Origin: Flavobacteriaceae bacterium
GTDB lineage: Bacteria > Bacteroidota > Bacteroidia > Flavobacteriales > Flavobacteriaceae
Direction of reading: 5' to 3'
Assembly (NCBI GenBank): GCA_947451525.1
Contig: CANFZM010000002.1
Span: forward strand, 1-64,000
Length of the DNA: 64,000 nucleotides
Numbering within the stretch: position 1 is the first letter of the stretch; each line of letters begins with the position of its first letter. Below the pieces are notes generated by a model. The model did not search any database. It saw nothing but the letters and a program-made list of their open reading frames with translations, and was not told where the DNA came from. The translations under genes were made by a program, and so were the position numbers. Shown piece by piece: positions 1 to 21,523 of the stretch.

Positions 1-1737
1 GGTGATCCTGCTAAGAGACAAGCGGTAACTAATCCAACTAAGACTATTGCTTCTATCAAACGTTTTATGGGTCATTCTTTTTCTGAAGTTTCGGCTGAGG
101 CAAAAAGAGTTCCTTATTCTGTAGTAAAAGGAGACAACAATACACCACGTGTGGATATTGATGGTCGTTTGTATACTGCACAAGAATTGTCAGCTATGAC
201 ACTTCAAAAAATGAAAAAAACTGCTGAAGACTATTTAGGTCAAACAGTTACTGAAGCGGTTATTACTGTTCCTGCTTACTTTAATGATGCACAACGTCAA
301 GCTACAAAAGAAGCTGGTGAAATTGCAGGTCTTAAAGTTATGCGTATTATCAACGAACCTACAGCTGCAGCTTTGGCTTATGGTTTAGATAAAAAAGGTA
401 AAGATCAAAAAATTGCTGTTTACGATTTAGGTGGAGGTACATTTGATATTTCTGTTCTTGAATTAGGAGACGGAGTTTTTGAAGTATTATCTACAAATGG
501 TGATACTCACCTTGGTGGAGATGATTTTGACCATGAAATTATTGACTGGTTAGCTGACGAATTTAAAACGGAAGAAGGTATTGATTTACGTTTAGATCCA
601 ATGTCTTTGCAACGTTTAAAAGAAGCTGCTGAAAAAGCAAAAATTGAATTATCTTCTTCTTCTGAAACTGAAATCAATTTACCTTATGTAACTGCTACAG
701 CTTCTGGACCAAAACACTTAGTAAAAAAATTAACTAGAGCTAAATTTGAGCAATTGACGGATTCATTAGTGAAACGTTCCATGGCACCAGTTGCTAAAGC
801 TTTAAAAGATGCAGGTTTATCTGTTTCTGATATTGACGAAGTTATTCTTGTAGGAGGTTCTACTCGTATGCCAAGAATTGCTGACGAAGTGGAAAAATTC
901 TTTGGTAAAAAAGCGTCTAAAGGAGTTAACCCTGATGAAGTTGTTGCAATTGGAGCAGCTATTCAAGGTGGAGTTCTTTCTGGAGATGTAAAAGATGTAT
1001 TGTTGTTAGACGTTACTCCTTTATCTTTAGGTATCGAAACTATGGGTGGTGTTATGACAACTCTTATCGAGTCTAATACAACTATTCCAACTAAAAAATC
1101 GCAAATTTTCTCTACAGCTGCAGATTCTCAGCCAACTGTTGAACTACACGTTCTTCAAGGTGCAAGAGCAATGGCTGCAGATAACAAAACTATTGGTCGT
1201 TTCAATTTAGATGGTATTCCACCAGCACCAAGAGGAGTTCCACAAATTGAAGTTACTTTTGATATTGATGCTAATGGTATCATCAAAGTTTCTGCTACAG
1301 ACAAAGGAACTGGAAAATCGCATGATATTCGTATCGAAGCTTCTTCTGGTTTAACTGCTGAAGAAATCGAAAGAATGAAGAAAGATGCTGAAGCAAATGC
1401 TGGAGCGGATAAAATCGCTAGAGAAAGAGCTGAAAAATTGAACGAAGCAGACGGAATGATCTTCCAAACTGAATCTCAATTGAAAGAACTTGGTGATAAA
1501 TTAACTGACGATCACAAAACAGCAATTGAATATGCTCTAACTGAATTGAGAATGGCACACCAATCGCAAGATTTAGAGGCTATCCAAAAAGGTTTAGACA
1601 ACATCAATGCTGCTTGGAAAACTGCAACGGAAGCAATGTATGCTCAAGGTGGTGACCAAGGTCAAGCACAACAAGCTGCTCCATCAGAGCCACAAGGAGA
1701 TAACACTCAAGATGTGGAATTTGAAGAAGTTAAATAA
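1..1737 (+). CDS. dnaK: Molecular chaperone DnaK (Hsp70), 5' truncated by the window edge
   Basis: Frame open from base 1 ([12 protein letters not shown]...); [31 protein letters not shown] and [11 protein letters not shown] Hsp70 motifs; C-terminus DVEFEEVK. Confidence 0.98.
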
Positions 1738-1769
1738 GTATTAAGATATTAGTACAAAGTATTAAGACT

Positions 1770-1800
1770 AAACCGAGCAAGAAAATTGCTCGGTTTTTTT
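1770..1800 (+). terminator. Rho-independent terminator of dnaK (copy A of a repeated terminator)
   Basis: aaccgagcaa-gaaaa-ttgctcggttttttt stem-loop plus T tract. Confidence 0.9.
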
Positions 1801-1863
1801 AATGTTTGTGTCTATTGTTTTTTTAAACCTAATTTAATATATTTGTGTATCAAAAAACGATTT

Positions 1864-2100
1864 ATGCTATTTGAATTTTCCTCACATAGTTTGGAACAAA
1901 TTAAATTACGTTCCATCACTAAAGAGATTGTAGAGTTAGTTATAAATGAGCCTGATGAAATAATTATTGAAGAGAATAATCAACAAATTTTTCAAAAAAT
2001 TATTGAAAATTATTTATATAGAGTTTTTGTTAACTCAAATAAAACACCTTCAATTATAAAAACTGTTTATAGAACTTCTAAAATCAATAAATACTTGTAA
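1864..2100 (+). CDS. DUF4258 family protein (putative toxin-like partner)
   Basis: ORF 1786-2100 re-started at ATG 1864 (MLFEFSSHSLEQIKLRSITKEIVELVINEPDEI...); TATATTTG promoter-like box at 1838-1845; overall DUF4258 pattern. Confidence 0.7.
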   Translation: MLFEFSSHSLEQIKLRSITKEIVELVINEPDEIIIEENNQQIFQKIIENYLYRVFVNSNKTPSIIKTVYRTSKINKYL

Positions 2101-2102
2101 AT

Positions 2103-2297
2103 ATGAAAGTTAAATATGATAAAGAAACAGATATATTGTATATCACTTTAAGTGATGAAGCAATTGAAGAATCAGATGAAGAAAAAAAAGGATTCATTTT
2201 AGATTATTCTAAAAATGGTGAATTGGTAGGAATAGAAGTGCTAAATGCTTCAAAATCATCAATCAATCCAGCTAAAGTTGAATATGAAGTAGCATAA
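2103..2297 (+). CDS. DUF2283 family protein
   Basis: MKVKYDKETDILYITLSDEAIEES...GELVGIEVLNASK is the DUF2283 signature; 2 bp after the DUF4258 stop. Confidence 0.8.
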   Translation: MKVKYDKETDILYITLSDEAIEESDEEKKGFILDYSKNGELVGIEVLNASKSSINPAKVEYEVA

Positions 2298-2334
2298 TTT
2301 TTTTAATTTTAATATTGGTACAAAGTATTAAGAC

Positions 2335-2366
2335 TAAACCGAGCAAGAAATTGCTCGGTTTTTTTT
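2335..2366 (+). terminator. Second copy (B) of the dnaK-type terminator
   Basis: taaaccgagcaagaaattgctcggtttttttt. Confidence 0.88.
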
Positions 2367-2378
2367 ATTGATTATATT

Positions 2379-3269
2379 CTACTTTTTATTATTAAACATT
2401 TTTGTTATCACAAAAGCATGAGGAAAAGTTATTGCTGCTAAAAAAGAAAAAAAGATGGCATTAAATATTTGCTTGTCCTTAAATATATAATAAAGTAGGA
2501 TAATTCCAATAATAGATATTATCCAATATACTAATGCCGTTTTACAATAGGATTTAAAATTTTGCAATGAATATTCACCATATAAATAATTCATTTGTTC
2601 TAAAATTGAAGGAATACTGTGCCACAAGATAAAATATAAAGAGAATCCCCAAATCAAACTTGATGTTTTGAAAATGATGGTAAACACTATTAAATAGAAT
2701 AACTCTTTAAGAATTTTTTCTCTTAACCTTTTATAAATATAATAAGTGTAAACTACTATTATAAAAAAAGCACTTCCAAATATTTTGAATAGTAGAGGTA
2801 GATAAAATGTTGGCATTCTAATCTTAGTAATTTCGAAAATTATATTTTCAACTTCTGATGTATGAAAAATAAATAGCAGTAATAGAATAAAAAGCCCGTA
2901 AGAAAAACCAATGGAATTGCAAATCCAATTCGGATATAATCCAATTAACTCTTTCCATTGCTGTTCCCCAAAATGAAAAGCACTAACTATTATAAATAAG
3001 AAAAGTGCAAACCATGGTAAGAAGTAAAATAGTATCGCACTTAAGATTACAATTAAGATGTAGATTATTAGCGTTTTAATAAAAAAAGAAGTGTTTTTTT
3101 TATTGTTTTTGTTTTCAATTAAGAGCAAATCATTAGCTCCATGCAAGATTCCGAATGAAAAAATGAATGAAAATCCTAAAATTATTTGAATTTGATTAGA
3201 AAAAAATGAATCTAACCATAACCCAAAAAAGCTTGCTACTATTGCAATATTTGAATATTTACCCATCAT
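2379..3269 (-). CDS. blh: Brp/Blh family beta-carotene 15,15'-dioxygenase (retinal synthesis)
   Basis: Multi-TM protein with HGANDLLL, SAFHFGEQQW, WHSIPSI and FPHAFVI histidine motifs; divergently adjacent to the rhodopsin gene. Confidence 0.85.
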   Translation of the reverse strand: MMGKYSNIAIVASFFGLWLDSFFSNQIQIILGFSFIFSFGILHGANDLLLIENKNNKKNTSFFIKTLIIYILIVILSAILFYFLPWFALFLFIIVSAFHFGEQQWKELIGLYPNWICNSIGFSYGLFILLLLFIFHTSEVENIIFEITKIRMPTFYLPLLFKIFGSAFFIIVVYTYYIYKRLREKILKELFYLIVFTIIFKTSSLIWGFSLYFILWHSIPSILEQMNYLYGEYSLQNFKSYCKTALVYWIISIIGIILLYYIFKDKQIFNAIFFSFLAAITFPHAFVITKMFNNKK

Positions 3270-3279
3270 GTTTTATATT

Positions 3280-3357
3280 TTGTTTAAAAATATGAAAAAA
3301 AAATTAAACAAAATGCTTTTTTATTGTTTAATTATTCATATGTTTGTTTAAACAAAC
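3280..3357. promoter_or_regulatory. Divergent blh/rhodopsin intergenic region with repeated TTGTTTAA/TTAAACAA boxes and a 16-bp perfect palindrome
   Basis: TTGTTTAA at 3280-3287, TTAAACAAA at 3304-3312, TTGTTTAA at 3324-3331, GTTTGTTTAAACAAAC at 3342-3357. Confidence 0.55.
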
Positions 3358-3376
3358 CCCTTAAAAATAATTTATT

Positions 3377-4102
3377 ATGACAAAATTTATGCTTATCCCA
3401 GGATTGATTGCAAAATTGTTACCTACTGATTATGTTGGTTTTACATTTTTTGTTGGCTGTATGGCTATGATGGCTGCATCAGCATTTTTCTTTTTATCAT
3501 TGAATCAATTTGATAAAAAGTGGCGTACCTCTGTATTGGTTTCAGGTTTAATAACCTTCATTGCAGCAGTACATTATTTTTACATGAAGGAATATTGGGC
3601 AGAAATTGGTGAATCACCAACTTTTTTCCGTTATGTAGATTGGATTTTAACAGTGCCATTAATGTGTGTTGAATTTTATTTAATACTAAAAGTAGCTGGA
3701 GCAAAAACAGATTTATTATGGAAAATGATAGCACTATCATTAGTAATGCTTGTTACAGGATACGTTGGAGAAACAATTGATCGTCCAAATGCATGGATTT
3801 GGGGATTGGTTTCTGGAATAGCGTATTTCTTAATTGTTTATGAAATTTGGTTAGGTAAAGCATCCAAATTAGCGCAAGCAGCTGGCGGAGATGTATTAGC
3901 TTCCCACAAAATTTTATGTTGGTTCGTACTAGTAGGTTGGGCAATTTACCCATTAGGATACATGTTAGGAACGGATGGATGGTATACAGGTATTATTGGA
4001 AAAGGTAGCGTAGATGTAGCTTACAACATTGCAGATGCAATTAACAAAATTGGATTTGGTTTGGTTATTTACAATTTAGCTTCAAAATCCCAAACTAATT
4101 AA
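3377..4102 (+). CDS. Proteorhodopsin-type light-driven proton pump
   Basis: 7-TM; RYVDWILTVPLMCVEFYLIL (D88, T92, E99; M96 at the spectral tuning site), H66, Schiff-base K224 in DAINKIGFG. Confidence 0.95.
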   Translation: MTKFMLIPGLIAKLLPTDYVGFTFFVGCMAMMAASAFFFLSLNQFDKKWRTSVLVSGLITFIAAVHYFYMKEYWAEIGESPTFFRYVDWILTVPLMCVEFYLILKVAGAKTDLLWKMIALSLVMLVTGYVGETIDRPNAWIWGLVSGIAYFLIVYEIWLGKASKLAQAAGGDVLASHKILCWFVLVGWAIYPLGYMLGTDGWYTGIIGKGSVDVAYNIADAINKIGFGLVIYNLASKSQTN

Positions 4103-4120
4103 TATTTCTATTTTCCAAAT

Positions 4121-4151
4121 TAAACCGAGCAAGAAATTGCTCGGTTTTTTT
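4121..4151 (+). terminator. Third copy (C) of the dnaK-type terminator, downstream of the rhodopsin gene
   Basis: taaaccgagcaagaaattgctcggttttttt, core identical to copy B. Confidence 0.9.
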
Positions 4152-4215
4152 ATTTAACATTTTTCAATAAGTTTATTTTGTATATTAGACATCACAATCA
4201 TCTAATTAGAAATAA

Positions 4216-4803
4216 ATGAAAAAAATATTTTTCCTAGTAGTACTTTCTTTAATTGGTTACAATTCCTTTGGTCAGAAAAAAAAATCGGCACCAAAAGCTA
4301 AACCTTTAACTGTTTTTGCAAAAGTGGATAATCTGGTAGCCGAAGTTAAAAACGGTACTTTTCAAATTACAATTAATGAAAATGGCACTCCAAAAGATGC
4401 TATTGAAGTTAAAACTGTAGAAACTAAATTTGCACCAACCGATTGTAAATTAACTCCCTTTAAAGCAAATGGTACGCAACTTTATCTATTATCATGGACA
4501 GAAAGCACACAGACAAAAACCGATTTAAAAACAGAAGATGCTGCTACTATTTATTCTAATATTTATGAATTAACTTCTAAAAAATTAATATTGTCTAACA
4601 AACAAGTTTCTAGTCATATTGTAGAAAAAGTATTTTTAGATAAATTAAAAAATGCTAGTGAAACCCAAGAAAGAAAGCATAGTGAAGGATTGGAATTCAA
4701 ATTAAATCCGGATGGTTCAATTATTCAGAAAACCAAAACCCAAGAAAATAAGTTGGTTTATGATGTTGCTAAAATGCAATATGTAATTTCTAAGAAAAAA
4801 TAA
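4216..4803 (+). CDS. Hypothetical exported protein
   Basis: Signal peptide MKKIFFLVVLSLIGYNSFGQ; no recognised family. Confidence 0.7.
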   Translation: MKKIFFLVVLSLIGYNSFGQKKKSAPKAKPLTVFAKVDNLVAEVKNGTFQITINENGTPKDAIEVKTVETKFAPTDCKLTPFKANGTQLYLLSWTESTQTKTDLKTEDAATIYSNIYELTSKKLILSNKQVSSHIVEKVFLDKLKNASETQERKHSEGLEFKLNPDGSIIQKTKTQENKLVYDVAKMQYVISKKK

Positions 4804-4813
4804 AACAAAAAAA

Positions 4814-4839
4814 AACCGAGTTATTTAACTCGGTTTTTT
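4814..4839 (+). terminator. Rho-independent terminator overlapping the 3' end of the opposite-strand gene
   Basis: aaccgagttatttaactcggtttttt. Confidence 0.8.
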
Positions 4840-6152: not shown

Positions 6153-6238
6153 TATAAAAAGGTTGAATTTTATTGTTACAAATGTATTATTTAAGATGTT
6201 AATTTCTTGCAAAAATATAAAAAGATTGTATATTTGCA

Positions 6239-6333
6239 GCGGCAAGTCCTACACGACCAGCTCCTGCAGACTCCTCCAGGATGGGAACATAGCAAAGGTA
6301 TGTGGTTGAGCGGTGCGATGTAGGTCGCTTGCC
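6239..6333 (+). ncRNA. ffs: Bacterial small signal recognition particle RNA
   Basis: ggcaagtcctaca...cctccaggatgggaacatagcaaaggtatg...tgtaggtcgcttgcc: closing stem ggcaag/cttgcc and conserved SRP core; TATATTTG box just upstream; hairpin plus T tract downstream. Confidence 0.88.
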
Positions 6334-6343
6334 ATTTTTAATC

Positions 6344-21093: not shown

Positions 21094-21119
21094 TTAAATG
21101 TCCATTCAAATATAAAGAA

Positions 21120-21148
21120 GCTCTACTGTTAAGTAGGGCTTTTTTTTG
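21120..21148 (+). terminator. sucD terminator, copy 1
   Basis: gctctactgttaagtagggctttttttt. Confidence 0.85.
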
Positions 21149-21470: not shown

Positions 21471-21496
21471 ATATTAAAAAGTAAAATATTTTTGAA

Positions 21497-21523
21497 GCTC
21501 TACTGTTAAGTAGGGCTTTTTTT
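21497..21523 (+). terminator. sucD-type terminator, copy 2
   Basis: gctctactgttaagtagggcttttttt. Confidence 0.85.

Follow-up and report, generated by a model that had tools for sequence, protein, structure and literature searches.

The 3′ flank of dnaK in this Flavobacterium-like Flavobacteriaceae genome carries three copies (A, B, and C) of a locus-specific terminator hairpin, and we lean slightly toward regarding the flank as an insertion slot, whose inserts have dnaK terminator copies at their borders and would be gained or lost through these repeats. The analysis covered a window of 64,000 nucleotides, that is, the whole stretch of DNA under study, together with loci fetched from related genomes. 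The locus specificity of the hairpin, the occurrence of empty and filled sites, the continuity of their flanks, and a 62-nt direct repeat were directly observed. The inserts would be moved by homologous recombination anchored in dnaK and in the copies of its terminator.

Genes and terminator hairpins of the dnaK–rhodopsin locus

The window begins with dnaK, followed in order by hairpin A, the DUF4258 and DUF2283 genes, hairpin B, blh on the minus strand, the proteorhodopsin gene, hairpin C, orf4216, and hairpin D (Table 1). Pfam matches agreed with the gene identities proposed in the initial annotation (DUF4258, DUF2283, divergent blh, and rhodopsin), and the three hairpins lay where its layout had placed them, namely after dnaK (A), after DUF4258/DUF2283 (B), and after rhodopsin (C). 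The bacteriorhodopsin-like protein (PF01036) contains the D-T-E proton-pump residues in RYVDWILTVPLMCVE and the Schiff-base lysine in DAINKIGF, and forms a proteorhodopsin photosystem with the retinal-forming enzyme encoded by blh (PF15461). A small SRP RNA gene (Rfam RF04183, 90.7 bits) was located at 6233-6338 on the plus strand of the window.

Table 1. Coordinates of the features discussed, with the loci bearing the integrase element
Feature	Position or loci	Strand	Basis or remark
dnaK, 3′ part (5′ end outside the window)	1-1737	+	at least 90% identical to dnaK of near relatives
Left copy of 62-nt direct repeat (dnaK 3′ UTR and terminator A)	1746-1807	+	84% to 2312-2373
Terminator hairpin A (dnaK), loop GAAAA	1770-1796	+	sequence comparison, folding, genome-wide pattern count
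DUF4258 protein	1864-2100	+	PF14076
DUF2283 protein	2103-2297	+	PF10049
Right copy of 62-nt direct repeat (second dnaK 3′ UTR and terminator B)	2312-2373	+	sequence comparison
Terminator hairpin B, between DUF2283 and convergent blh	2336-2361	+	exact 31-mer, folding
blh, beta-carotene 15,15′-dioxygenase	2379-3269	-	PF15461, 4e-42
Proteorhodopsin	3377-4102	+	PF01036, 3e-42
Terminator hairpin C (rhodopsin)	4122-4147	+	exact 31-mer, folding
Right flank of C and orf4216 promoter region	4148-4215	+	continuous with the dnaK terminator of rhodopsin-negative relatives
orf4216	4216-4803	+	immediate 3′ neighbor of dnaK where rhodopsin is absent
Terminator hairpin D, bidirectional, related stem, ACCGAGTTATTTAACTCGGT, 3′ of orf4216	4810-4839		comparison, folding
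Element-bearing loci	L095 (G006), L093, L107, L112, L113, L116, L130, L138, L142, L161, L174; far ends L185-L194		

As the initial annotation had noted, copies B and C share the 31-mer TAAACCGAGCAAGAAATTGCTCGGTTTTTTT exactly (2335-2365 and 4121-4151; no such match in 100 shuffles), and copy A is the same hairpin with one additional A in the loop. The folds of A, B, and C consist of 11-bp stems followed by a U-tract, with energies of -16.8 to -17.6 kcal/mol and z-scores of -5.9 to -7.3. With a stable GC-bearing stem-loop and a U-run just 3′ of a stop codon, each is predicted to be an ordinary intrinsic terminator. The likeness between A and B extends over 62 nt at 84% identity and includes 24 nt of the dnaK 3′ UTR, whereas that between C and A/B is confined to the hairpin. 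The right flank of B aligned with the blh-side flank of the dnaK terminator in genome G106. Elsewhere in the window, another near-identical terminator pair, GAAGCTCTACTGTTAAGTAGGGCTTT, was found ~350 nt apart at 21113-21145 and 21493-21519.

The pattern AACCGAGCN{3,14}GCTCGGTT occurred at exactly three places in the 2.84-Mb genome, corresponding to A, B, and C, and no ACCGAG..CTCGGT terminators besides A-D were found genome-wide. A relaxed GNRA-loop pattern gave 95 matches in 150 Flavobacterium genomes, against none for its reversed control; 56 followed dnaK and 14 followed rhodopsin at a distance of no more than 170 nt, and 25 lay elsewhere. The latter comprised copy B, three matches on the blh side of the photosystem, 11 at displaced dnaK ends, five after the next gene downstream of a dnaK end, one 711 nt behind dnaK, and about four unrelated matches. 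Approximately 91 of the 95 matches were thus tied to the dnaK locus, ~21 of them at dnaK-derived positions besides the 56 and 14. A narrower pattern gave 31 matches in 400 genomes, three of them clearly elsewhere, one upstream of blh where the contig ends, and the rest at dnaK or rhodopsin ends. The Winogradskyella/Lacinutrix clade has a different hairpin, ACGCAATCATTNATTTGRTTGCGT, likewise confined to the dnaK–rhodopsin locus (eight matches, all but one at the end of dnaK or of rhodopsin; the remaining match lies another 3.3 kb downstream).

The initial annotation had named as a ground for refutation that the 31-mer might be a common generic terminator across the genome; in its wider form, this explanation makes the hairpin generic to the genus and its three copies a coincidence. 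Many terminators have CCG..CGG stems and GNRA loops, and similar hairpins also stand behind dnaK in rhodopsin-negative genomes; with only three copies in the genome, all at the dnaK–rhodopsin locus, and the 150- and 400-genome counts given above, this explanation is extremely unlikely and was rejected. The locus specificity of the hairpin family is the firm result of the analysis.

The terminator type appears to go with the site and not with the gene. A dnaK-type terminator followed rhodopsin in 28 of 65 distinct loci at the dnaK site (the other 37 lacked it) and in none of 21 loci at other sites (Fisher p 9e-5, kinship uncorrected), and the dnaK and rhodopsin terminators of many positive genomes were quite unlike. 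The idea that, in other genera, look-alike terminators also flank rhodopsin outside the dnaK site was rejected: in 29 loci from further genera of the family, three of them at dnaK, no near-identical pair was seen, and L018 had a moderate one. It is quite improbable that dnaK and rhodopsin share a need for one special terminator or mRNA 3′ terminus and that the sequence was selected twice. GNRA loops stabilize RNA ends and both genes may be highly expressed, but the 21 rhodopsins at other sites lack the dnaK-type terminator, and other genes inserted at the slot do have such terminators.

Empty and filled sites behind dnaK

Each related species was represented by a single genome, in many cases a metagenome assembly, and dnaK flanks were drawn by dnaK similarity; the hairpin alignments are short. 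Rhodopsin-negative relatives showed the order dnaK–terminator–orf4216, and orf4216 is probably the ancestral downstream neighbor of dnaK. The single terminator that the initial annotation had anticipated at such sites was the usual state, as 60 of 62 rhodopsin-negative dnaK flanks contained at most one hairpin-family copy within 2.5 kb. The annotation had also stated that several copies at rhodopsin-negative sites would argue against it. G102 and G079 have two to three, with the additional hairpins behind the next genes; since these copies lie between other inserted genes, they widen the pattern and do not refute it.

Many rhodopsin-positive relatives had one terminator on each side of the photosystem, and pairs of empty and filled sites could be compared. 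The empty sites of G604, G133, and G082 each contained one CCGGRTAAGCAATTATCCGG terminator, identical to CCGGGTAAGCAATTATCCGG or one base off, and rhodopsin-positive G065 contained exact CCGGGTAAGCAATTATCCGG twice, behind dnaK and behind rhodopsin. The empty sites of G511 and G069 had one window-type hairpin each. To the right of C, TTTTTTTATTTAACATTT...TTTTGTATATTAGACATC is followed by orf4216; in empty sites, this sequence stands on the right side of the lone dnaK terminator, and alignments of 4097-4382 and 4122-4776 to the empty sites of G069 and G511 demonstrated the continuity of this flank. To the left of A lies the dnaK 3′ UTR. Copy A thus keeps the left flank of the empty-site terminator and copy C its right flank, which indicates that the insert is bounded by terminator copies. 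The arrangement of one terminator in the empty site and one per side in the filled site was found for a subset of lineages.

The photosystem is not the only insert at this slot. DUF4258 was found in one of 150 genus genomes and DUF2283 in one of 348 order genomes, in both cases the window genome; because all relatives searched lack the pair, it appears to be a recent arrival, bounded by the 62-nt direct repeat of dnaK 3′ UTR and terminator, and its insertion implies that duplication can accompany insertion. An adjacent DUF4258-DUF2283 pair also occurs on IMG/VR viral contig L267 (2235-2641; 1864-2297 in the window), and this shared adjacency suggests a phage-borne two-gene module. An origin of the DUF2283 3′ end from the dnaK 3′ end was rejected, as the alignment was at chance level (8% of random windows). 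In G028, the dnaK-blh gap (L086) is occupied by a 271-aa gene (MKQIFN..., no Pfam match) between two GCCAG..CTGGC hairpins, and the same protein is encoded behind rhodopsin in L006 (10995-11810); from these different positions, the gene seems to move within the slot. In L053/L067, an orf4216-like gene at the slot is accompanied by a second ACCGTT..AACGGT-type hairpin.

Age of the photosystem and routes of insertion

Blh–rhodopsin was located 3′ of dnaK in 86 fetched loci (66 distinct), and the order dnaK-blh-rhodopsin spans Flavobacterium, Winogradskyella, Lacinutrix, Psychroserpens, Algibacter, and Subsaximicrobium. A second common arrangement places blh–rhodopsin between an SDR gene and a transaldolase gene (L030, L037-L041). 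Rhodopsin was present in 47 of the 150 genus genomes. Additionally, one genome encoded two complete rhodopsin genes ~1 kb apart (G142:C4:57867-60363), and the metagenome-assembled genome CAIJFC01 (L017, L045) had two at different sites.

The dnaK and rhodopsin distances correlated (r = 0.67), indicating that much of the inheritance was vertical. The window shared 95% identity in rhodopsin and 69% in blh with G028, and 87% and 80%, respectively, with G106; this difference in nearest relative points to inheritance with exchange. Copy C is one transition apart from the rhodopsin terminator of G028 and was probably inherited. The initial annotation had proposed that the photosystem came by a terminator-associated route. 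The locus-specific hairpin, the usual limit of one copy at rhodopsin-negative sites, and the bounding of the insert by terminator copies support this proposal; a recent arrival does not stand, given the correlation above, the inherited copy C, and an arrangement old enough to be shared by several Flavobacteriaceae genera, and the photosystem is unlikely to have arrived recently in the window genome.

In the mechanism that we propose, blh–rhodopsin would have been inserted at the terminator of an ancestral dnaK–terminator–orf4216 order, giving a photosystem with one terminator toward dnaK and one toward orf4216. A later insertion of DUF4258/DUF2283 would have used this slot too, placing the pair between dnaK and blh with another copy of the dnaK 3′ UTR and terminator at its border, and the terminator copy beside blh would stop transcription from both directions. 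The copies are direct repeats at least ~30 bp long, adjoin the conserved chaperone gene dnaK, and would offer homology for recombination: donor DNA could be inserted by one crossover in dnaK and one in the terminator, excision could follow from a crossover between two terminator copies, and the photosystem could in this way come and go more than once at a single site. The one-genome-per-species sample showed neither an excised circle nor strains differing in the presence of the photosystem. In a more tentative form of the proposal, the terminators might serve as integrase-free cassette boundaries, at which homologous recombination between dnaK terminator copies repeatedly inserts, deletes, and stacks short units of genes, including the whole proton-pumping photosystem, behind dnaK.

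The main rival explanation, which accounts for the rhodopsin part nearly as well, is that blh–rhodopsin was inserted once, long ago, and that gene conversion has kept its terminators alike with no role in movement. Such concerted evolution agrees with the lineage-specific sequences common to both terminators in G065, L012, L063/L071, and L131, with the old shared synteny and the distance correlation, and with the inheritance of the window rhodopsin terminator with G028. However, rhodopsin-negative relatives whose single terminator has the same lineage-specific sequence are explained just as well by duplication at insertion, and the A/B pair takes in the dnaK 3′ UTR and is tied to a recent insertion; we consider gene conversion without movement rather unlikely. 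In a comparison of 49 positive loci with both terminators, seven pairs scored at least 0.8, against 2.7% expected under swapping among loci (mean, p ~0.0005; count, p 0.0001; kinship uncorrected). A second set of 28 loci showed a weaker within-genome excess (p 0.044, kinship uncorrected), and the excess for non-rhodopsin terminators was not significant (p 0.066). The within-genome match beyond family resemblance thus appears modestly above chance and is only suggestive of ongoing homogenization. Near-identity was found in 11 of 133 terminator pairs at <3 kb and in none of 161 at 6-20 kb, in loci chosen around rhodopsin, so that these values are no general rate.

The dnaK 3′ end is also associated with an integrase. 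Eleven fetched loci have another type of hairpin, ACCGCTGTAAACG..., after dnaK, and a gene for a 419-aa tyrosine recombinase (PF00589, 2e-24) begins there ~750 nt behind dnaK; the integrase homologue was found only in these loci, which have the ACCGCTG-type terminator behind dnaK. In the integrase-type genomes, the GNRA hairpin was located either 20-126 kb downstream in the same orientation, at a greater distance, or on a different contig, and in ten cases it was preceded by a second TTTGAAGAAGTNAAATAA (the dnaK 3′ end) or a near copy. Most simply, about a dozen relatives would harbor a site-specific tyrosine-integrase element for which the 3′ end of dnaK serves as attachment site, spanning 20-126 kb where both ends are on one contig in order; use of this site by a large element would be part of why the flank varies so much. 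No published description of dnaK as an attachment site was found in the open-access literature. The presence of such an element in relatives raises the question of whether it brought the photosystem, but no second copy of TTTGAAGAAGTNAAATAA was found on the far side of the insert in any rhodopsin locus, and no integrase of the dnaK-targeting type near blh–rhodopsin in any positive locus. Nothing links the element to the photosystem, whose loci are without both marks; carriage by this element is highly improbable, and placement of the photosystem within it was rejected.

Comparison with known systems

Hairpins A, B, and C resemble intrinsic (Rho-independent) terminators in their GC-containing stem, short loop, U-tract, and position just behind stop codons; unlike the usual case of an unrelated hairpin for each gene, they repeat a single locus-specific sequence. 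Searches of the open-access literature yielded no account of terminator repeats linked to dnaK. As in integron/cassette arrays, genes at a fixed chromosomal site are bounded by short related repeats, but here the repeats are terminators and no integrase was seen beside blh–rhodopsin. The locus is also reminiscent of tyrosine-integrase ICEs or genomic islands at the 3′ end of a conserved gene, a role that the dnaK 3′ end appears to play in relatives, whereas blh–rhodopsin and DUF4258/DUF2283 are without a duplicated dnaK end of the element type and without an integrase.

Proteorhodopsin is patchily distributed in Bacteroidota. In the parts of the Dokdonia (PMC3587595) and Polaribacter (PMC5932025) accounts considered here, blh adjoins rhodopsin, the distribution is patchy, and neighbors are conserved within the genus, as at the present locus; the neighbors there are other genes (L-serine dehydratase in Polaribacter, PMC5932025), and those parts describe no flanking terminator repeats. 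For Polaribacter, the identical gene context was taken as a sign of loss, with repeated gain at one site judged unlikely (PMC5932025, in the part considered). If terminator repeats both mark and aid insertion, repeated gain at one site becomes plausible, and the inference of loss in Polaribacter needs care. Terminators would then have a role in genome rearrangement, insulating the new gene and supplying homology for its gain and loss.
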